Source: Deltaproteobacteria bacterium
GTDB lineage: Bacteria; Desulfobacterota; Desulfuromonadia; Desulfuromonadales; BM103
DNA: 64,000 bases
Assembly (NCBI GenBank): GCA_024279915.1
Contig: JAJRRB010000039.1
Span: 64,652 to 128,651 of the forward strand
Reading direction: 5' to 3'
The notes beneath the pieces were generated by a model, which did not search any database, was not told the origin of the DNA, and worked only from the letters and a program-made list of their open reading frames with translations. Both the position numbers and the translations under genes were made by a program. Positions 26,568 to 38,511 of this stretch are shown piece after piece. Within the stretch, counting starts at the first letter, position 1. Every line of letters begins with the position of its first letter.

Positions 26568-26635
26568 ATCCTCCTGAGAGATGTGTAAGGCCAGGGAATA
26601 CTCTTTTAGTTCATGAGGGTGCCAGAAAACCTGAC

Positions 26636-26748
26636 ATACGAGAATGGCCACCGAGGATCGAACCCTGGTGGCCATAGTTATGCGCATTAAACTGCCTCTC
26701 AAATACCTCTATCAATAATAAGCCGGTTTTCTTCTCGGAAGTCGTGAC
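26636..26748. repeat. Dispersed hairpin module, copy A
   Basis: Hairpin TGGCCACC ... GGTGGCCA (26645-26674) with a 14-nt loop containing AGGATCGAACCCT, then a tail (26706-26748) ending TTCTCGGAAGTCGTGAC. The same hairpin and tail recur at 28306-28409 and 36874-36968, and the hairpin alone at 27835-27862. Confidence 0.75.
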
Positions 26749-26918
26749 ATATAGGAAATCAGGCACAGCCTTCGTTGAGGGCTTCTGCCAAAACGAATTG
26801 TTCGTGCTTTATTAATTGATACCAAGTGTTTACGTGTGATATACATACCCCTGTTTTTAATCTCACCTGTACGAGGTACTCCAACTTTAACAATCAACTT
26901 GAGGGGTTTTATAAGCGT

Positions 26919-27730: not shown

Positions 27731-27767
27731 ATGGCACAGGCTTTCTTTTCCTTCCTATAAATCATCC

Positions 27768-27862
27768 CGCATTGTTTCAGGGGTGTGAAGTTAGCAGAAA
27801 TGCATAATTCCTGCTGACCCTGACATATGAGAAAGGCCACCAAGGATCGAACCCTGGTGGCC
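27768..27862. repeat. Dispersed module, copy B (leader stem-loop plus hairpin)
   Basis: Leader CGCATT (27768-27773) to AATGCA (27799-27804), then CCCTGACATATGAGAA, then the hairpin GGCCACC/GGTGGCC (27835-27862) around AAGGATCGAACCCT. The leader recurs at 36681 and 38198. This copy lacks the tail that follows the hairpin in copies A, C and D. Confidence 0.7.
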
Positions 27863-28156: not shown

Positions 28157-28305
28157 TTTCCCTCCTAAAACAAGTACATAATTAGGACACTGCAAATTGT
28201 AACCGGTCATTGTGTAAGATCAAGCTCGGGCTATCTAATACAGTTGTGTCATGAGGTTTGCAGGGCTTAAATCCCTTGATCCCAGCCTCTGTCTCACACC
28301 CCCTG

Positions 28306-28409
28306 CAATGTAAGAAAAGACCACCAAGGATCGAACCCTGGTGGCCATAATTTTGTCTTCCTAAATGTCTCTATCAAAAAGAAGCCATATTCCGTCTTAG
28401 AAGTCGTGG
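28306..28409. repeat. Dispersed hairpin module, copy C
   Basis: Hairpin GACCACC...GGTGGCC (28319-28346) around AAGGATCGAACCCT, then the tail TCTCTATCAA ... AAGTCGTGG (28368-28409). The stem has one A/C mismatch. It lies between the IHF/HU promoter region and the cytochrome gene. Confidence 0.7.
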
Positions 28410-28448
28410 TATTTAAGAATCAAGTCATCCCGACCTGTATTTATGGGG

Positions 28449-28616: not shown

Positions 28617-31600
28617 ATGGGTACCTTGAAAGGTGTTGATGCGCCAAAATCAGGGGGAGTCCATGATTTCGCCAAAAAAATGGCGAGATTCGGGACACCA
28701 CTATTAGCCTTTTCGCTGGCCTCATTGCTGTATTTCCCCACTAATTGCCTTGCAGATCCAGCGACAACCCCGGGCCAACTCACTATTTCTCCTCAGCATC
28801 AGCAGTTAATTATCACCGCCACCTACAGCGGCGATGAAGATGGCAGCAATGCTCTTTGGGTTGACTGGGACGAGAATGATGGCGACTGGTCGACTCTCCT
28901 GGGCAGCACCCTTCTCACCCATACCGAAAGCCCTTACACTTACTCAATTACTGGTCTGACCAATGGGGCTCAATATCGGGTCCGGCTCAGATGGCAAGAC
29001 GATAATTCTCCTGACGATCAAGAACAAACCGGTCTGATTCCTTATACCCCAGTGGTCCACAATTCTCTTTCCACCGCTTCATCCAAATGGGATGGCTCAT
29101 GGGGGGTCAAAGATGGGCAGTATGGCGAATTTGTCTGCGCAACTTGCCATAAAAGAGGCAGTGCCAATATCAAAAGAATAAAAGAAATCTTTACGACCGC
29201 TGACGGATCAAATTGGAGCGGGCCCGCTGATCCCAGTGTCAACGTGTCCTTTCAAGATACACGGGATGACTCTTCAGATTTTGGAGATGACTCGGAGGGG
29301 CACTCCGCATCGTCACGGATTTGCGAAGTTTGCCACAGTTTGAACAAGTACCATAATTACAAGGTGACAGATAACACCGGTGGTAACACAGGACACTACA
29401 ATCGTTCAGATTGCATTCGCTGTCACAAACACAATAACGGCTTTAAACATGGCGGTGACTGCGAGGCCTGTCACGGTCATGACGCCGGGTACGAATACAG
29501 CCTGGGTCAACTCAGCGCAGGGGTCGGTAGCACACACAGCCACTCCACCCACACGGAGAATGATGCTGACGATCAGAAAGGACCGCACATCGGCTGTGAT
29601 GTCTGTCATGACACCAGCAGGTTTGCGGAGAAGATCTTCGCCGACGGCAAAACCCTGGAACAGACGATCGTCTGCGACGCTTGTCACAGTCCGAGCGGGT
29701 CATACGATGGAGTATATAACGCGGTTGTCGGCGCAAAAGCCAACTGGGATACTGGCGTCTACAACGGTGCTCAGCTGCAAGCTGGCAAAGAGAAGTGGTG
29801 CGTCACCTGTCATGATGATGTTCCCGCTGACTCTCAGGCTGATGGAAGCGGCGTAAGCGCACGCAATGTGGATGGTGACAATACCAACTTCGGTTTCTAC
29901 AGCAGTGGCCATGGCGTCAACGCGAACATTGACTGCACCGCCTGCCACGATATCACCAAGCGACATATCGACCACATTTATTATCCGGTCGATGACGTTC
30001 TTCTCCTCGGCAACAATCAAACCGATTATCGTTTCTATGATGGTGCGGGCATGATTATGCCCACGGGAAGCTACACACCCGCCGCCTTTGTGCTCTGCTA
30101 TCAATGTCATCAGGAAGGGCTGATTTCTACAGACCTACCTGTAGGAGCCACCACCGGCACCAACTTCCGCGAGCAAAGCGGCTCCTGGGGTGGAGTCAAC
30201 CTGCACAGGTACCATGTTATTGATGGATTATCGACGAGCTGCCTCAAATGCCATAACGTCCATGGCAGCCAACGAACCCGCATGACTGACCCCGCCCCAG
30301 AAGGCAACGGTGATTTTCGCCCACTGCGCTATGACAGTGGCAGCAGCCGTTATTTCGAGCTGGCTGATCAAGCCCTGCTGAATGACCCTGCTCACAACGT
30401 GGGCGGCAGCATAGTCACCAATCCTGTCTGTGGAGGCTGCCATAATGCCGTTTCACTTGGGTCTGGACTCACCCTTCCCAACGACGAAGGTTGGTACCTG
30501 CGTGAGTATGACCCCCAGAGTTATCAGGACGATACTGATTTTGATGGTGACGGGGTGGCACAAGAAGTCGACAATTGCCCCGGAACGGCCAACAGCTCGC
30601 AAGCAGACGATGACGGCGATGGGATTGGCAATGAGTGCGACAACTGTAAGGTCGCTGACACAGAAAAATCATTCAACCCGTTACAAACCGATACAGATCA
30701 AGATGGCCTCGGCGATAGCTGCGACGACATCTGTTACGGCTTAATCTCTGGTTGGGGGACCCAGTTTGGCCCTCTCGACAGTGAAGCCACAGACGTAGCG
30801 GTCGACAGTGATGGCAATAGCTTCATTGTCGGCTATACAACCTCAGTGATTGAACTCGGATACACCTCCCAGGGGAATGGTGACATGTTCATTGCCCGCT
30901 ATGATGCACATGGGAACCGGACCTGGATTCGACAATTCGGCAGTGCCGGTATTGACAGAGCCAATGCTGTAGCCATTGATGCAGAGAACAGCGCCTACGT
31001 GGTCGGCAGAACAAGCGGGACACTTGATGGTCCGATCAACAGCAGCGGCAATGATGCCTTCATTCTAAAATACAACACCGAGGGTATCCTGCAATGGGTT
31101 GAGCAACTCCACAGTTCTTACGATGAAACAGCTCATGACGTGACCGTTGACGCGGCCGACAATGTCTATGTCACTGGCACCACGGGGGGGGACCTAGACG
31201 GGGATGGCGACGAAAGCCACCATGGGGATGACGATATTTTCGTGAGCAGCTATAACAGTGCTGGCGTCCAAAACTGGTTCAAACAGCTCGGCACGAGCTC
31301 AAAGGATTACGGCTACTCCATTGCGGTTGACCCCAGTGCTGTTGTGTACAAGATTCTGGTTGCCGGTGACACCCTAGGCGATCTTGACGGCCCGGGTAGC
31401 CACATCGGCAGCACTGATTATTTTATTGCCAGTCTCTCAGCAGATGACGGCACACTAGACGAGTTGAGTCAACACGGCACGAACAATTATGAAACAATCA
31501 ATGCTCTTGCGGTCAGCGGCGCGGGCGATATTTTTGTAGGTGGGCGTGATTACTCTCTCGGAGGGACAACCGGCATTTTCCTCACCAAGCTCAACAAGAG

Positions 31601-33218
31601 CCGTATTATTCAGTGGAAACGAGCATTCGGAAGCCTCGGCAACGATTATAGTCGTGCGGTCGCCGTGGACAACGACGGAAATTCCTACATAGCTGGGGAA
31701 TACGGCAGCGAAATAGCCCTTAGAAAATACGATCCCGATGGATTGTTGCGTTATAGCAACCGATGGGGCAGAGCCAACACAGATATGGGCGGAATCGCCA
31801 TGGACGGTCTGGAGCGCATCTACCTGGCCGGGACCACCTCAGGCCCACTCTTTAATAACCCTGCAAATGGAAAGGATGCACTATTATTCCGTCTGGACCA
31901 GGCTCTTTGTCCGGATGGCGCGGACAATGATGCTGACGGCGACGGCATCCCCAACGGTTGGGACAATTGCCCCTACACCCCAAATGCCGGCCAGGAAGAT
32001 GATGACAGCGATGGCCTGGGGGATAACTGCGACACCTGTCTCAACGACAGTTTAAATGACCAAGATAGCGATGGTCTCTGTGATGCGACCGATGACCCCT
32101 GCTTGAACGACCCGGTCAATGACCCTGACGGCTACAATGTCTGCGCCAACGACGACAACTGCCCGCTGGACGCCAACAGTGATCAGTTTGACAGTGATGG
32201 CGACGGATGGGGGGATGTTTGCGACAACAGCCCTGATGACGACAATCCGGACCAGAAGGATTCTGACTTTGACGGCATCGGCGACATCAGCGATGTCTGC
32301 CCCGACGACCCGGACAACGACTTCGACGGCGACGGCATCTGCGTCGGCGCACGCTACCTGTACACGGAGAAGGATGGGGCGAACGATAACTGTCCGTTAA
32401 TAGCCAATGGTGCTGCGGAAGACAACCAGGCAGATACCGACCTGGACGGTATTGGCGACGCCTGTGAGCAAGCCTGTAGCGACTACAGTGTCAACTGGAA
32501 ATCCCAGTTCGGTACGCCCATCAGAGATGACATCCAGGCTATTGCGACGGTGGAAAACAATGGAACTGTTGTGGTCGGCAAAACCAATGGCGACCTCAAC
32601 AGTGGCGGTTTCGATTTCCATCTCACCCGGGTTGGTGCTGACGGCTCGCGCTCATGGAGCCGGCAACTCGGCTCTGCTGATGACAAAGTCTATCCATATG
32701 CCGTCGCTGTGGCTGCAGACGGTCATATTTATGTGGGCGGGGAAACCCAGGGAGATATCGACGCTGACGGCGACCAGGTTTACGCGGGCGCCAAAGATGG
32801 GTTCCTGGCCAAATTCGACTCCACAGGTGGATTACTTTGGCTTCGCCAGTTTGGAACCAACACCGATGATCTGGTGACCGGAATCGCCATTGACAGCAAT
32901 GGTGACATCTACCTCAGCGGCGCAACCAATGAAGATCTGGACGGCGCAGGCGCGCAGCTACACCTTGGCGAAACGGATCTGTTCCTCATCAAATACGAGC
33001 CAGACGGCACACGCACCTGGCTCCGCCAGCACGGCACATCCAGATCCGAGGGTGCCTCCGACATCGCCATCCACGATTTATCGATTTACCTGAGTAGCAC
33101 TGTCTCTATATACGGCCTTGATGGCCAAGATATGTACGGCTGGGATGATGCCATTCTGCTCAAATATGACAGCGATGGCACGCGCCAATGGACCCGGCAA
33201 ATTGGCACCGAAAATTAA
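28617..33218 (+). CDS. Giant multihaem c-type cytochrome-adhesin, N-terminal ORF (11 CXXCH)
   Basis: 1,533 codons before a TAA at 33216. ATG 28617 was chosen because it follows a G-rich SD tract and the sigma-54 site; a TTG at 28575 lies inside that promoter. Signal peptide ends near residue 47 (CLADP). Eleven CXXCH haem motifs lie between residues 174 (CATCH) and 605 (CGGCH). Then come a thrombospondin type-3 Ca-binding stretch (about 640-705), a first SBBP-type beta-propeller repeat region (710-1097), a second TSP3 stretch (1098-1285) and a second SBBP region. It should be exported and probably surface-exposed. The frame continues after the TAA through 36206, see the next two entries. Confidence 0.85.
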   Translation: MGTLKGVDAPKSGGVHDFAKKMARFGTPLLAFSLASLLYFPTNCLADPATTPGQLTISPQHQQLIITATYSGDEDGSNALWVDWDENDGDWSTLLGSTLLTHTESPYTYSITGLTNGAQYRVRLRWQDDNSPDDQEQTGLIPYTPVVHNSLSTASSKWDGSWGVKDGQYGEFVCATCHKRGSANIKRIKEIFTTADGSNWSGPADPSVNVSFQDTRDDSSDFGDDSEGHSASSRICEVCHSLNKYHNYKVTDNTGGNTGHYNRSDCIRCHKHNNGFKHGGDCEACHGHDAGYEYSLGQLSAGVGSTHSHSTHTENDADDQKGPHIGCDVCHDTSRFAEKIFADGKTLEQTIVCDACHSPSGSYDGVYNAVVGAKANWDTGVYNGAQLQAGKEKWCVTCHDDVPADSQADGSGVSARNVDGDNTNFGFYSSGHGVNANIDCTACHDITKRHIDHIYYPVDDVLLLGNNQTDYRFYDGAGMIMPTGSYTPAAFVLCYQCHQEGLISTDLPVGATTGTNFREQSGSWGGVNLHRYHVIDGLSTSCLKCHNVHGSQRTRMTDPAPEGNGDFRPLRYDSGSSRYFELADQALLNDPAHNVGGSIVTNPVCGGCHNAVSLGSGLTLPNDEGWYLREYDPQSYQDDTDFDGDGVAQEVDNCPGTANSSQADDDGDGIGNECDNCKVADTEKSFNPLQTDTDQDGLGDSCDDICYGLISGWGTQFGPLDSEATDVAVDSDGNSFIVGYTTSVIELGYTSQGNGDMFIARYDAHGNRTWIRQFGSAGIDRANAVAIDAENSAYVVGRTSGTLDGPINSSGNDAFILKYNTEGILQWVEQLHSSYDETAHDVTVDAADNVYVTGTTGGDLDGDGDESHHGDDDIFVSSYNSAGVQNWFKQLGTSSKDYGYSIAVDPSAVVYKILVAGDTLGDLDGPGSHIGSTDYFIASLSADDGTLDELSQHGTNNYETINALAVSGAGDIFVGGRDYSLGGTTGIFLTKLNKSRIIQWKRAFGSLGNDYSRAVAVDNDGNSYIAGEYGSEIALRKYDPDGLLRYSNRWGRANTDMGGIAMDGLERIYLAGTTSGPLFNNPANGKDALLFRLDQALCPDGADNDADGDGIPNGWDNCPYTPNAGQEDDDSDGLGDNCDTCLNDSLNDQDSDGLCDATDDPCLNDPVNDPDGYNVCANDDNCPLDANSDQFDSDGDGWGDVCDNSPDDDNPDQKDSDFDGIGDISDVCPDDPDNDFDGDGICVGARYLYTEKDGANDNCPLIANGAAEDNQADTDLDGIGDACEQACSDYSVNWKSQFGTPIRDDIQAIATVENNGTVVVGKTNGDLNSGGFDFHLTRVGADGSRSWSRQLGSADDKVYPYAVAVAADGHIYVGGETQGDIDADGDQVYAGAKDGFLAKFDSTGGLLWLRQFGTNTDDLVTGIAIDSNGDIYLSGATNEDLDGAGAQLHLGETDLFLIKYEPDGTRTWLRQHGTSRSEGASDIAIHDLSIYLSSTVSIYGLDGQDMYGWDDAILLKYDSDGTRQWTRQIGTEN

Positions 33219-33908
33219 GATGAAGCCAAAGCTGTCAGCACAGATATCTCTGGAAACATCTACCTGAGTGGAGATACATCGAGCAGTCTCTTCTCTGGTA
33301 ACGCCGGCGGCCCTGACTTCTTCCTGGTCAAATTCGATGCAGAGGGCAACCAGCTCTGGGGGCAACAACTTGGTGGCAGAAGCAATGACTATGTCTACGA
33401 CCAGGCAATAAATAACAGCGGCGTATATCTTACCGGACATACCAACGGCGATTTCGATAACGAGGGTCCGTTGATCCAACAGGGATCGGCTAACAGCAAT
33501 GCCGTCCTGGTCAAATTTGATCATGATGGCCAGCACCTGTGGAGCAATCAATATGGCCTCGCAGAAGGCCCCTGGACGGATTATTTAGGGATTCAAGCCA
33601 TAACCGGGTCTTCTGACGGAAAACTGTATCTGGCCGGTTTTTCCAATAGGGGTGATTTCGCCATCGAAAATATCGGTTTTGAGGACAATATCCTCATGCA
33701 GATTGAAGAATGTAGTTCTGCGGGGCCTGCTGTACCGACCCTGTACTGGACCGGCGAGAGCAACTACACCAACGATGGTGTCGATCCTGACAGCGGCGCG
33801 CAGTTCAGCAACTTCACTTTCCGGGTGAACTATACTGATGCTGACAATGACTACCCGTTGCCCATCGAAGTCTGGGTAGACGTTGACGACAACGGCGCCT
33901 ATGCGTAA
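33219..33908 (+). pseudogene. Middle segment of the giant cytochrome frame, between two TAA codons
   Basis: Same reading frame as the cytochrome. It begins DEAKAVSTDISGNIYLSG, continuing the SBBP repeat that was cut (the sister repeat reads RQFGTNTDDLVTGIAIDSNG), and runs into an Ig/cadherin-like stretch. It ends at a second TAA (33906-33908) inside the repeat DDNGAYA-stop-AEKFVMNE. No start codon with a Shine-Dalgarno is evident, so this part should not be made independently. Confidence 0.8.
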
Positions 33909-33923
33909 GCTGAAAAGTTTGTC

Positions 33924-36206
33924 ATGAACGAAGTGGATAGCGGAGACATTGATTATACCGACGGCAAGCTGTATACCAGAAGTAGGTCCTTACCGTACGT
34001 CGGAGACGGTATGCTGACGTATCGCTTCAACGCCACAGATGGAAGCTCTACCTCGACCGGTGATCCTGTCGCAGATAAAACGGTTACTGTAATCAATATT
34101 CCTCCAGATACTCCAGTTGTTGCGACTCCTGTAGATGGAGCAATCGATGTTCCACAACCGATTGCTCTGTATGCCTCTGACTTTGTTGATACAGATGCAG
34201 GCGATACGCATCAAGCCAGTCAATGGCTAGTTAGCACTGTTTCCGGTGATTATTCCGACCCCAATCTGGTGCATGACAGCGTTACGTTCGCACGCACGTT
34301 TTATTATCCGAGTATGTCGCAGACTCAGGGAGTGACCTACTACTGGAAGGTTCGCTATCAAGATCAATTTGGTGCATGGTCAGATTATTCAACAGAAGCC
34401 AGTTTTACACTGATTGATAACGCGATACCGGATGAACCAGCACATATTTCGCCAGTCGTAGATGCCGTAGATGTAGATCGACAACTGACGCTTGAGGCCG
34501 GACCTTTTTCAGATAGTGATGGCGATACTCATATCGGCAGCGTGTGGCAAGTGAGCACCACGTACGGGGATGATTTTGTCTATGGAATCGTGCATAGCAA
34601 TGTTGGTGCAGCAGCGACTAGCTATGTTCTCCCTGTGACATTGGACGCAGGTCAAATATATTACTGGCGAGTTCGGTATCAGGACGACAAGGGACAATGG
34701 TCTGATTTCACAGATACAAAATTTACGACCAACAGCGTTGTTGTTATGTATCATTTCGATGAAGGCAGCGGCAACGTCGCGACGGATGCAGTCGGTAACA
34801 ACAACGGTAGTATTCGGAACGGAGCCACCTGGAGCACCGGCTTTTCCGGTCAAGGTCTGCTTTTTGATGGCGTCGATGATGACGTAATCTGGAGTTACCT
34901 CGATGGAACGCTGGCTGATAATTTCACCATCGAAGCAATGGTCAAGGCAACCACTACACATGAGATCTCTGCTGCTACTGACCCAGAAGCAACTTCCGGA
35001 ACTGGTGGTATCAGTGGTCAAAAGTATCTGTTCGGTGCCCAGCATCCTGGTGGTCTAATAAACTCCGGAGCTGGAATATCGATGGGAACCAACGGGATTT
35101 CAGTATACGAACACGGCGATACATATATGCCGCCATTAGCGGTTTACGACCCTTCTACTGAAAATCCGGTGGAACCGCAGCTGGGAACAGCATGGAACCA
35201 TGTTGTCGCTACGTATACGGATAAACAACCGAGGATATATTTGAACGGTCAGCTCGTTCACACGGGGTTAACATCGTTAAAGACATCTGTGTTTGCGCCG
35301 ATTCAGTTAGCTCGTGGTTCCTACGGTGCCTTCGCTGGAACGATCGACGAAGTAGCGATCCATGGTAAGTCACTGACTGAAGCCGAGGTGCTAAAGCGTT
35401 GTATCGCTGTCGGTCAATGTGCCGATGGCGATATCGATAGCGATGGGGTGACTGATAGCACAGATAACTGTCCGTTCGAGGCCAATACTGATCAGGCCGA
35501 TTTCGACGCTGATGGGGTCGGCAATGTCTGTGAGTATCTGGGCTACTGGAAGTTCGACGAAGGGGCCGGTGCGATTACACATGACGAAACTGTCCACAAC
35601 AATGACGGCCAGCTCTTCGGCGGCGCAACCTGGACTGCTGGCAAGGTAAGTAGTGCCGTCGACTTTGACGGTTCAACCGGCTACGTTAGTATCCCCGACT
35701 CGCCAGTCCACCACTTCGGCTCAGGGAGCTTCACCGTTGAAACCTGGATCAATGCCTCCTCCTTTACTTCCACCGACAATCCGGCCTACGTTCGCTGGCT
35801 TTCCAAAAGTGCATGGTGCGCCTCATGGTCAACAGAGGCTTCTTGCAAATGGTTTGTCGGCCAGGTCGACAGTACCGGCCATCCACAATTTAGCGGTAGG
35901 GGATATAACGATTCTTCCGGCTTCAACTATACTGCTCCCGGAACCATTTCCCTGAACACCTGGCATCACATCGCCTATGTCATTGACCGTAGTGGCACTC
36001 CGGGCAAGGGCTTCATCTATATCGACGGTGTCAACCAGAGCGGTACAGGTGTCGATCTGAATGCATTAAACGGCGAGCTGAACATTCCCGCAGCGCTCCA
36101 ACTCGGCGGGCCATATGCCGAGTTAACCGGCAAGCTTGACCAGACAGCGATATACGGCAACGCGTTATCTGCGGCGGAGATTCTAGATCACTACCAGAAC
36201 CCGTAA
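33924..36206 (+). CDS. C-terminal segment of the giant cytochrome frame (Fn3-like, LamG, TSP3)
   Basis: Still the same frame; the first ATG after the second TAA is 33924. It contains two Fn3-like repeats (about full-length residues 1828-2038, ASQWLVSTVSGDYSDPN and IGSVWQVSTTYGDDFVYG), a LamG domain (2042-2262; YHFDEGSGNVATD), a short TSP3 stretch with DGVTDSTDNCP (2270-2305) and a second LamG (2307-2529) ending DHYQNP. I would treat it as the tail of the interrupted adhesin-cytochrome, not a gene of its own, though translation from 33924 cannot be excluded. No signal peptide follows the ATG. Confidence 0.6.
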   Translation: MNEVDSGDIDYTDGKLYTRSRSLPYVGDGMLTYRFNATDGSSTSTGDPVADKTVTVINIPPDTPVVATPVDGAIDVPQPIALYASDFVDTDAGDTHQASQWLVSTVSGDYSDPNLVHDSVTFARTFYYPSMSQTQGVTYYWKVRYQDQFGAWSDYSTEASFTLIDNAIPDEPAHISPVVDAVDVDRQLTLEAGPFSDSDGDTHIGSVWQVSTTYGDDFVYGIVHSNVGAAATSYVLPVTLDAGQIYYWRVRYQDDKGQWSDFTDTKFTTNSVVVMYHFDEGSGNVATDAVGNNNGSIRNGATWSTGFSGQGLLFDGVDDDVIWSYLDGTLADNFTIEAMVKATTTHEISAATDPEATSGTGGISGQKYLFGAQHPGGLINSGAGISMGTNGISVYEHGDTYMPPLAVYDPSTENPVEPQLGTAWNHVVATYTDKQPRIYLNGQLVHTGLTSLKTSVFAPIQLARGSYGAFAGTIDEVAIHGKSLTEAEVLKRCIAVGQCADGDIDSDGVTDSTDNCPFEANTDQADFDADGVGNVCEYLGYWKFDEGAGAITHDETVHNNDGQLFGGATWTAGKVSSAVDFDGSTGYVSIPDSPVHHFGSGSFTVETWINASSFTSTDNPAYVRWLSKSAWCASWSTEASCKWFVGQVDSTGHPQFSGRGYNDSSGFNYTAPGTISLNTWHHIAYVIDRSGTPGKGFIYIDGVNQSGTGVDLNALNGELNIPAALQLGGPYAELTGKLDQTAIYGNALSAAEILDHYQNP

Positions 36207-36609
36207 TCTCTTTATTGACGACGGAACCACAGGCGCAGGTAGCATTCCCCACAGCACTTGGTGTCATTTTCTCTGGGCAATTGACCGAACCTATTATGTC
36301 ATGAAGATCTATAAGAACGGTGAGTACGAGAGTCAGCGCGGTATTTCTATCCTAGAAACTAATGCGATCACCGATGACAAGCTCTTCTATCTTGGTAAGG
36401 CTGGCGATAATGCTAATATGCACACCGGTTCAATGGACAATGCCACCGTGTATGATTTTGTGCTAGAGAGAGTTCTGACGCCCGAGAACATCTTGGGATC
36501 TTCAACTAACGTCAAAAATCAGTGGCTCTTTACTGCTACCTCACGGATTCGGGATCATTGGGGTTGGTTCAAATCCAGTCATCCCGGCCAGTATTATTGG
36601 TTATCTTGA
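36207..36609 (+). pseudogene. Degraded LamG-domain remnant
   Basis: In the +1 frame relative to the cytochrome tail the sequence DDGTTGAGSIPHSTW then CHFLWAIDRTYYVMKIYKNGEYE is a typical LamG strand set. ATG 36301 opens an ORF to 36609, but the LamG match starts 84 bp earlier with no start codon or RBS. It looks like the surviving end of a second LamG protein, or of a longer version of the cytochrome, joined here by deletion. Confidence 0.6.
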
Positions 36610-36970
36610 TTTTTAAGAAGGGTTACGTGACCATAGGCTGGAATAGACAGAAGAAAGACTGGGATTACTATTTATCCTCCCGCATTGTATGGATGGTGTG
36701 AAATTAGCCGAAATGCGAAATTCTTAGAACCCCTGACAAATAAGAACCCTGCAGATTTGTTAAGGTCACCGCAGGGTTCAGCTTCTCTTTCACTATGGAG
36801 GTAGGAAAATGAAAAGCTACTAACCACACTATCATCAAACTCTGCTCTGTCAATTTGCATTCAACTACCAAAGAATAAGGCCACCGAGGATCGAACCCTG
36901 GGGCCATTGTTTTAGCCCCTAAATGTCTCTATCAATAATAAGCCAGTTTTCTTCTCGGAAGTCGTGACTT
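36610..36970. other. Spacer with two repeat modules
   Basis: Nothing coding was found beyond a 4-codon ORF (ATG 36810, MKSY) preceded by GGAGG. The stretch is occupied almost wholly by repeat copy D. Confidence 0.6.
36681..36968. repeat. Dispersed module, copy D (leader, hairpin, second hairpin, tail)
   Basis: Leader CGCATT (36681-36686) to AATGCG (36712-36717), then CCCCTGACAAATAAGAA, then a hairpin GAACCCTGC/GCAGGGTTC (36744-36779) with a stem unrelated to other copies. About 100 bp later the GGCCACC/ATCGAACCC hairpin (36879-36906) recurs with a 2-bp loss, followed by the tail (36926-36968). It ends 2 bp before the glycosyltransferase stop codon. Confidence 0.75.
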
Positions 36971-37903
36971 TTATGTTTGTTTGTCAGAGAAGTTCTGGGT
37001 ATCAAGAAGCCAACTTAACTTATCACATTCATCAACCTCATCTGTACCAAACAACTTTTCCAAAATCGTTCTGGCCCCAAAATTTTTAAAAATCGTGTGG
37101 TAATGTATCGATGTTATGCCCTCTAATGATTTTGGACGAATTTTTTCAGCAACATCTAGGTGCATATGAATTGGATAGTTATACCCAAATGGTAGTTCTT
37201 TGATTTTTGCAACAAGTTGATGGAGGGTTGCTGCAAGGACAGACTGCTCAGTAAAAAAGATACCGTCAGCAGGCTGAATCCCCATGGTCATAACTCTTGA
37301 GAAGTTATCAGCCCAAGCGGAGAAAACTCCCTTCGACCTCCTAACCGCAACCATACCACTGTTCCAATAACCAATAATTCTTAAGTTAGTCACAGTCGTA
37401 TCCACATAACAGTAATTCGTAACTCCAAGTAGATTGAAAAGGCTTTCCCAGTAAGGATGATTCTTGTCAACTGTACCGCAAGAACCAATATTTTTCCCAT
37501 CGACAGGCCGCAGGGCAACATCAAAGCTCTCCAGAGAAAATAAATCACTAGGTGGAGCTAATAGAACCTTGTCGCTATCAAGGAATACCAAGTACTCATA
37601 GTCTAGGTTACGCTCAGCATAGCTGCAGACTATCGGTTTGTTTGCCAGGGGATATTCGGGGAAGTCTAAATTCAACGTTTTATCGATATGTTCAACGGAT
37701 AGTGTATCAAACTCACGGAGGGTGGAGCTTGCTAGTTTTTCACCGGTCCGAGGTTGGAAGGAATATATTGGACATTCACTGAATACCCCGCCAAACTCAC
37801 GCACGGACTTAGCAAGAAGAAGCGACTTTTCTTCTAGATCACCAACCTCTGTGCATATAACAAAAGCTAGGTTAGCTTTGATGCCCTTATGGAGATGATT
37901 CAT
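36971..37903 (-). CDS. Glycosyltransferase-like protein (GT-A fold)
   Basis: 310 aa. LDYEYLVFLDSDKVLLAP carries a DxD metal-binding motif (FLDSDK), and the IIGYWNSGMVAV and FTEQSVLA segments match GT8-like sugar transferases. No membrane segment or signal is visible, so it is probably cytoplasmic. The gene is low in G+C compared with its neighbours, and it lies between repeat copies D and E, which suggests acquisition. The donor and acceptor are unknown; no other polysaccharide genes accompany it. Confidence 0.65.
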   Translation of the reverse strand: MNHLHKGIKANLAFVICTEVGDLEEKSLLLAKSVREFGGVFSECPIYSFQPRTGEKLASSTLREFDTLSVEHIDKTLNLDFPEYPLANKPIVCSYAERNLDYEYLVFLDSDKVLLAPPSDLFSLESFDVALRPVDGKNIGSCGTVDKNHPYWESLFNLLGVTNYCYVDTTVTNLRIIGYWNSGMVAVRRSKGVFSAWADNFSRVMTMGIQPADGIFFTEQSVLAATLHQLVAKIKELPFGYNYPIHMHLDVAEKIRPKSLEGITSIHYHTIFKNFGARTILEKLFGTDEVDECDKLSWLLDTQNFSDKQT

Positions 37904-38511
37904 TCAGAAGCCCTCTATATCTTCCATACCGTTCCCCGATACTCAACAAATTCATATTTGACGTTATTTTAACTCAACCCGCAAACTGCCCATTAATGCA
38001 CAGCTCAAAACTAGAGCTACAAAACAAAAAAATCGCCGGGCAGCAAATGCCGACAACAGCGGTAAAGAGTTTGTTCCTTATTGTTTTGCAAGCTGGTTGA
38101 TCATTTCCATTCCCCATAAAACACATCAAATAAGACGAGACCAATCTACGCCATGAATCTGATTAGGTCAAAGATATTGGATTCTTATTAATCCTCTCAC
38201 ATTGTTTGGTAGCCCTCAAATTGGCAGAAATGCGAAATTCTTACTACCCCTGATAAATAAAAACCCCGCTCAACCTGGAGGGGTTGGGATCTGGGGCGCG
38301 TCTACGAACCGGGAGGCTCAAGCAGGCGGACGCAATATACATTAAGGCGGTCTTAACTGGAAGTGGGAAACAAGGTGTTTTCCGTAGAAAAAGAAGTAAG
38401 TATTTTTTGTGTGAAATTGAGGTTTTGAGTAACTATTGGTCTTGAAACTGGTCTCGAAAGCAATAAGCGTCGCCAATAAAGTCGATGCTGTCTGATTATA
38501 AGTACATAGAA
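37904..38511. other. Gene-free spacer between glycosyltransferase and Bax-like gene
   Basis: 608 bp without a supported gene; only short random ORFs. It contains repeat copy E (38198-38285) and AT-rich sequence. I see no tRNA, IS end or integrase gene. Confidence 0.7.
38198..38285. repeat. Dispersed module, copy E (leader plus hairpin)
   Basis: Leader CACATT (38198-38203) to AATGCG (38229-38234), then CCCCTGATAAATAA, then a hairpin with AACCCC (38262-38267) pairing GGGGTT (38280-38285). As in copy D, the hairpin position is kept while its stem sequence differs. Confidence 0.65.

Follow-up and report, generated by a model that had tools for sequence, protein, structure and literature searches.

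In a 64,000-nucleotide stretch of DNA from a Deltaproteobacteria bacterium (GenBank assembly GCA_024279915.1, contig JAJRRB010000039.1; hereafter the window), the reading frame at positions 28617-36206 of the plus strand is best explained as a formerly undivided gene encoding a multihaem cytochrome that was secreted and associated with the surface, now split by two apparently recent TAA codons, with the copy most likely lost. We give this reading a probability of about 0.65. The frame comprises 2530 codons, shows no frameshift in 7.6 kb, and has as its only internal stops the TAA codons 1534 (33216-33218) and 1764 (33906-33908), referred to below as TAA1 and TAA2, the terminal TAA lying at 36204-36206. 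Its domains follow each other in the order signal-like N-terminus, 11-haem module, TSP3, seven-bladed SBBP beta-propeller, TSP3 array, second seven-bladed propeller, a module of ~125 amino acids designated WTGESNY, immunoglobulin (Ig)-like domains, LamG, TSP3 and LamG (Table 1). Translation and a motif count (11 CXXCH, codons 174-605) confirmed the first-pass annotation in its claim of one such frame with 11 haem motifs and TAA codons at 33216 and 33906.

With stops making up 4.7% of random codons, the chance of an open run is ~2e-5 for 229 codons and ~1e-16 for 765, which places the continuity of the frame beyond chance. This frame has a positive codon preference in each of seven segments, exceeding that of the other two forward frames, the test being a weak one because an antisense frame, which holds several stops, scores equally or slightly higher in some segments. 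The open reading frame as delimited mechanically opens at TTG 28575; ATG 28617, with AAAGG five bases upstream (AAAGG-GGGGG-ATG), is by eye likely to be the better start.

The most direct evidence for a single gene concerns TAA2. In a genome of the same genus (G003), an open frame that enters from a contig edge shortly upstream of the WTGESNY module reads through the TAA2 site and reaches the same final residues as the window protein, with 523 of 834 positions identical (63%). In a genome of the same order (G125), an open frame of 2317 codons, cut only by the contig end, also spans this site; its start matches the cytochrome module (47% identity over 541 columns) and its end the WTGESNY-Ig-LamG portion (47% over 780 columns), while no blade was found in its middle, where Ig-like domains and a beta-helix-like stretch were recognised by eye. 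As for TAA1, it falls in blade 5 of propeller 2, leaving four of the seven blades upstream. When propeller 2 was modelled with an arbitrary residue at TAA1, from an alignment of two sequences only, the result had a predicted template-modelling score (pTM) of 0.81, a mean predicted local distance difference test score (pLDDT) of 72.8 and 28 strands, that is, 7 x 4; as modelled, the propeller is complete only when both sides of TAA1 are read. The best fold matches of this read-through propeller were five entries of CylK, with expectation values (E) of 1e-24 to 1e-23, template-modelling scores up to 0.82 and 31% identity, the next match having an E of 3e-9. A stop cutting inside a blade of a propeller that is complete only across it suggests that the two sides formerly belonged to one gene. 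The idea of one split gene, put forward in the first-pass annotation, is supported, and no homologues ending at the position of the first TAA, which would have pointed to a separate downstream gene, were found.

The closest uncut order was found in a genome of the same family (G015), where a frame of 2312 codons runs uninterrupted through its propeller and encodes 17 CXXCH, TSP3, a seven-bladed SBBP propeller, TSP3, LamG, Ig-like and LamG domains. It shares with the window the succession cytochrome-TSP3-propeller-TSP3 followed by Ig-like and LamG domains in one frame, and it ends after the domain equivalent to window LamG 1. A match that continued for ~25 codons past this end, over two stops, was viewed in three frames, and nothing further was recognised.

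Sequence divergence gives a view of how the far end has evolved. Beyond TAA2, a comparison of the window with G003 over 746 codons gave 0.268 nonsynonymous (dN) and 1.68 synonymous (dS) substitutions per site (NG86 method), hence a dN/dS of ~0.16 with a nearly saturated dS. When G125 served as outgroup, 63 changes over 730 columns were assigned to the window side and 79 to the G003 side. The low dN/dS and the lack of acceleration on the window side indicate that the far end has been selected as a protein and has not decayed faster, from which it follows that the stops are either very young or absent from the living population.

Several points weigh against this interpretation. No uncut relative was found with the exact order, meaning two propellers followed by this C-terminus, so that the intact homologues proposed as a check in the first-pass annotation were obtained only as the close order of G015; the latter differs in having 17 CXXCH, one propeller and an extra LamG in the middle, and in lacking the final TSP3 and LamG 2. 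No orthologue was found that bridges the TAA1 site, the G003 contig starting later and G125 being devoid of the middle propeller, and bridging at TAA1 is argued from the blade count, the two-sequence model and the single propeller of G015. Propeller 1 itself is defined by its blade count and its SBBP match. Counts of repeat columns at the TAA sites were taken from frames that by definition contain no stop and so tell us no more than that related repeats run on past these sites, with gaps at those columns in 2 of 40 module copies (TAA2) and in 20 of 84 relatives' blades (TAA1). In addition, the near-saturated dS limits the selection estimate, and AlphaFold failed to model the haem module (pLDDT 31.3 with alignment A1, nine sequences), so that no fold is given for it. 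Finally, the stops depend on the reads behind one draft assembly. Taken as a whole, the evidence for one split gene is good, and it is more direct for TAA2 than for TAA1.

The host assembly (genome G000, with the window on contig C33) is a 3.83-Mb draft in 99 contigs, and both the reality of the stops and the loss of function are inferred. The balance leans towards recent loss, and the main alternative, with a distinctly smaller share of the probability, is that the TAA codons are assembly errors or alleles of a minority strain, living cells making the full protein. A far end under selection without acceleration would agree with that, as would the absence of frameshifts and the fragmented draft; nevertheless, none of 12 own-genome matches has an internal stop, although these cover only parts of the paralogue frames, and two nonsense errors in one gene would be a lot for base-level error. 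If the stops are real, the copy is most likely lost, because no export signal was recognised by eye in the C-terminal pieces, and because the N-terminal piece stops within a half-built propeller. The first-pass annotation had left the choice between a broken gene and a truncated cytochrome still working from the first 1,533 codons without the binding end. The former is favoured and the latter appears unlikely, since such a protein would stop after four of its seven blades and could be expected to misfold, even though all 11 CXXCH, the N-terminus and propeller 1 precede TAA1 and other relatives pair the haem module with quite different tails.

It might also be argued that the pieces are separate genes, given that cytochrome and SBBP protein are encoded by separate neighbouring genes in five loci. 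There, however, the whole SBBP frame comes after the cytochrome, whereas here TAA1 interrupts a blade and TAA2 a module that is open across this site in G003 and G125, and the frames downstream of the stops have, by eye, neither a signal peptide nor a clear ribosome-binding site; we regard separate genes as very improbable. Least credible of all is that TAA is read through or recoded: the frame is indeed kept on both sides of each stop, but the frame itself finishes with a TAA, at the point where G003 also ends, sense codons occupy the TAA2 site in relatives, and we know of no routine TAA recoding in bacteria.

Table 1. Features of the split cytochrome frame and its immediate 3' side (positions in the window)
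Feature	Position	Strand	Basis
Likely start and signal-peptide-like N-terminus, codons 1-47	28617..28757	+	Read by eye
N-terminal Ig/Fn3-like beta domain, bounds approximate	28758..29070	+	By eye; a paralogue has a weak fn3 match, below cut-off, in a similar place
11-CXXCH cytochrome module, codons 174-609	29136..30443	+	Motif count; Cytochrome_C7; conserved in alignments A1 and A2
TSP3 repeats 1, approximate	30516..30740	+	TSP_3; two NCBIfam models at codons 634-704 and 639-678, both below cut-offs
SBBP beta-propeller 1, seven blades, codons 709-1097	30741..31907	+	Blades cut by eye and aligned; SBBP profile
TSP3 array 2, approximate	31908..32489	+	TSP_3, best stretch codons 1098-1126
SBBP beta-propeller 2, seven blades, codons 1292-1699, cut in blade 5	32490..33713	+	Blades, model, fold match
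In-frame TAA 1	33216..33218	+	Translation of frame
WTGESNY module, codons 1705-1830, interrupted	33729..34106	+	41 copies in 12 open frames of relatives' loci
In-frame TAA 2	33906..33908	+	Translation; site bridged in G003 and G125
Ig-like domains, two by eye	34107..34736	+	PF25788, whole-protein score only; 55% to G125
LamG domain 1	34749..35396	+	Laminin_G_3; 64% to G003, 55% to G125, 53% to the G015 2312-codon frame
TSP3 repeat 3	35418..35495	+	TSP_3 at 504-529 of the last segment
LamG domain 2 and native C-terminus, stop 36204-36206	35514..36203	+	77% to G003, ending in the same residues
Displaced C-terminal half of another LamG, other reading frame	36208..36606	+	Identity to G125 and G015 protein ends

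The haem module matches the multihaem c-type cytochrome profile Cytochrome_C7 (PF14522) with 38.7 bits against a cut-off of 24.8; here and below, Pfam matches are above curated whole-protein cut-offs unless stated. The MtrC/OmcA-type domain II/IV profile PF22113 gave no match at E 0.01 in the window protein, and was matched above cut-off by a paralogue (L048) and a relative (L060). A profile search of the PDB with alignment A2 had as its best match ~85 residues of 6r2q_A (E 4e-5), whose listed name is not that of a cytochrome, too weak to place the module; among the weak, partial matches of this search none was, by listed name, to an OmcS/OmcZ-type nanowire. The beta domain preceding the haem motifs had no Pfam match in the window protein. 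With an N-terminus that looks signal-like by eye, the protein is predicted to be most likely secreted and surface-associated.

Among the remaining domains, Pfam SBBP scored 143.7 bits, with seven stretches before TAA1 and two between the stops, TSP_3 was found in two stretches before TAA1 and one after TAA2, and Laminin_G_3 scored above cut-off (104.9 bits) in two stretches, both after TAA2. The domain list of the first-pass annotation therefore stands for the cytochrome, propellers, TSP3 and LamG, while its Fn3-like domains score as Ig_Rha78A_N (29.4 bits against a cut-off of 27.4, no single stretch passing alone) and the fn3 profile had no match at E 0.01 in the window protein. Similarly, its placing of both stops inside repeats is correct for TAA1, and has to be modified for TAA2, which sits in a WTGESNY module present in a single copy here and in tandem in several relatives. 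This module had no Pfam match at E 0.01 when the pieces on either side of TAA2 were scanned apart; it overlaps a below-cut-off GEVED match in relative L060.

Immediately after the terminal stop, the stretch 36208-36606 resembles the C-terminal half of the LamG that ends the G125 protein (54% identity over 103 columns) and the same half in a 3724-codon frame of G015 (49%). Window LamG 2 is 77% identical to its G003 counterpart; with the LamG domains that end the G125 protein and the G015 3724-codon frame it shares ~26% identity. The simplest reading would be that, in the lineage of the window and G003, an older terminal LamG was replaced by a different LamG with its own stop, the old C-terminal half being left behind. 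In G003 the next open frame begins 37 bases past the last sense codon and the only match to this half in the stretch is the G003 LamG itself (31%, E 0.001), and thus the remnant is absent there; in the genome of the window the displaced half had no other match at E 0.001. The presence of LamG sequence after the final TAA (36204) had raised the possibility that this stop is premature as well, an idea dropped because G003 ends at the same residues. A replaced LamG with the old half alongside has the look of an exchange of domains in progress, and provides a means of testing what the binding ends recognise.

The gene is flanked by copies of a dispersed intergenic repeat (26630-26753, 27819-27862, 28303-28415 and 36863-36973), part of which (28346-28319, minus strand) consists of a hairpin with T's after it, so that it may be a repeated terminator-like element. 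These flanking copies were considered as marks of a mobile cassette, which was abandoned since the repeat belongs to a dispersed family with 17 own-genome matches. A second repeat of ~91 bases occurs close to the gene in three copies (27749-27839, 36662-36752 and 38179-38269), two of them 67% and 79% like the reference copy. Scans for tRNA genes and tandem repeats found nothing, and promoter-like (12 versus a shuffled mean of 9.8) and terminator-like sites (9 versus 7.2) were near expectation.

Relatives of the two main modules were sought in 147 genomes (own included), of which 43 matched the cytochrome part and 28 propeller 1. Among open frames of at least 500 amino acids in 37 loci, three distinct ones of G015 combine 17 CXXCH with six or seven blades, and in the five loci mentioned above (G000:C69, G014:C37, G045:C11, G056:C18 and G112:C220) a cytochrome frame is directly followed by an SBBP frame on the same strand; the start of the second frame overlaps the first stop by four bases in G000:C69 (ATG) and G112 (GTG), the other three starts being uncertain. 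The loci were chosen by their cytochrome match, and these counts carry no frequency; elsewhere, for example in G033, G040, G113, G125 and G143, cytochrome and propeller matches lie on different contigs or far apart. Fused and adjacent pairs suggest that the propellers work together with these cytochromes. The own genome has at least five similar cytochrome frames besides this one, with open paralogues of 1809, 3963, 1923, 1953 and 796 amino acids.

Some of these loci deserve a separate description. Paralogue L048:8152-19998 (G000:C90) has ~3960 codons and 22 CXXCH. The outermost of these motifs lie close to the two ends of the frame and enclose domains of Ig-like, propeller-like, LamG and TSP3 type. 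L053:6110-17635 (G079:C57), of 3842 amino acids, combines 24 CXXCH with TSP3, PKD, an FGE-sulfatase-type domain and RCC1 repeats, and is another cytochrome with a different kind of propeller. In G015:C150 (L055, L066 and L056), seven long frames are clustered, with 16-22 CXXCH each and differing tails. At L081:6321-6360 (G112:C220) the N-terminal part of the cytochrome is out of frame with the rest, and this relative looks broken or affected by an assembly error. The same cytochrome module was also present in two gammaproteobacterial records (L030 and L031), one of them labelled Candidatus Thiodiazotropha.

As for function, the intact product was most likely a secreted electron-transfer protein with a binding end, to judge from its domains, and the pairing of electron transfer with surface binding proposed in the first-pass annotation is reasonable. 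In this scheme, whose export, haem loading, electron transfer and binding we infer, the 11-haem module would carry electrons, the TSP3 spacers would serve, together with the two seven-bladed SBBP propellers, as a stalk or a scaffold for binding, and the Ig-like and LamG end would bind a polysaccharide or partner surface, holding the haem chain where electrons are delivered; the two in-frame TAA codons now split the gene, the copy most likely having just been lost. As a family, TSP3 repeats bind calcium. A Pfam scan of 15 other window frames, a subset of its genes, gave no cytochrome or porin match. It is also conceivable, if rather doubtful, that these proteins form a group of surface cytochromes with interchangeable tips, in which a common haem module with SBBP (fused or neighbouring) has its C-terminal binding module exchanged by recombination, a proposal motivated by the displaced half-LamG adjoining the new LamG. 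If true, by gaining, swapping and silencing tips a bacterium could change the surface or partner to which it is electrically joined. These cytochromes bear on the open question of how extracellular cytochromes are held against a mineral, a matrix or a partner cell.

Known systems offer partial parallels. CylK (PDB 7fh6 and four more), a Friedel-Crafts alkylation enzyme with a propeller that we take to be of the SBBP type, is matched by the propeller 2 model over ~417 columns; being an enzyme, it is alike in fold only, and shared function is not implied. SBBP repeats are likewise common to the LipL53-family lipoprotein of Leptospira (NF047494), for which the window protein scored 229.2 bits, below the equivalog cut-off of 400, and the MtsC cohesion protein model NF047638 gave 81.4 bits against a cut-off of 350, with its best stretch over TSP3. 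Among cytochromes, OetF, a cytochrome c with fibronectin domains from the extracellular electron transfer conduit of sulfate reducers that partner anaerobic methanotrophic archaea (ANME), similarly joins a cytochrome to surface-binding domains, for which its authors suggested matrix or partner recognition; likened here by description only, it differs in that the available portion of that description mentions no propellers, TSP3 or LamG, the word propeller being absent from the text altogether (PMC10553843). Desulfovibrio ferrophilus has an island in which multihaem cytochromes are genetically linked with six- or seven-bladed propellers, encoded by the separate genes DFE_0451, 0452 and 0463 (PMC8322314); besides being separate, DFE_0451 and 0463 are described as NHL-repeat proteins (PMC9769857) and not as SBBP in one chain. 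Deletion of genes for predicted outer-surface cytochromes in D. ferrophilus did not stop Fe(III) oxide reduction (PMC9769857), and outward electron transfer is therefore not to be assumed from sequence. A large multihaem cytochrome of Desulfuromonas has been described as having 624 amino acids and at least nine haem sites (PMC7762298). In the open-licence literature, no published multihaem cytochrome joined to an SBBP, thrombospondin or laminin G domain was found. In summary, large multihaem cytochromes with binding domains are known, and what is new in the present gene is the fusion of cytochrome and propeller together with the swapped end.

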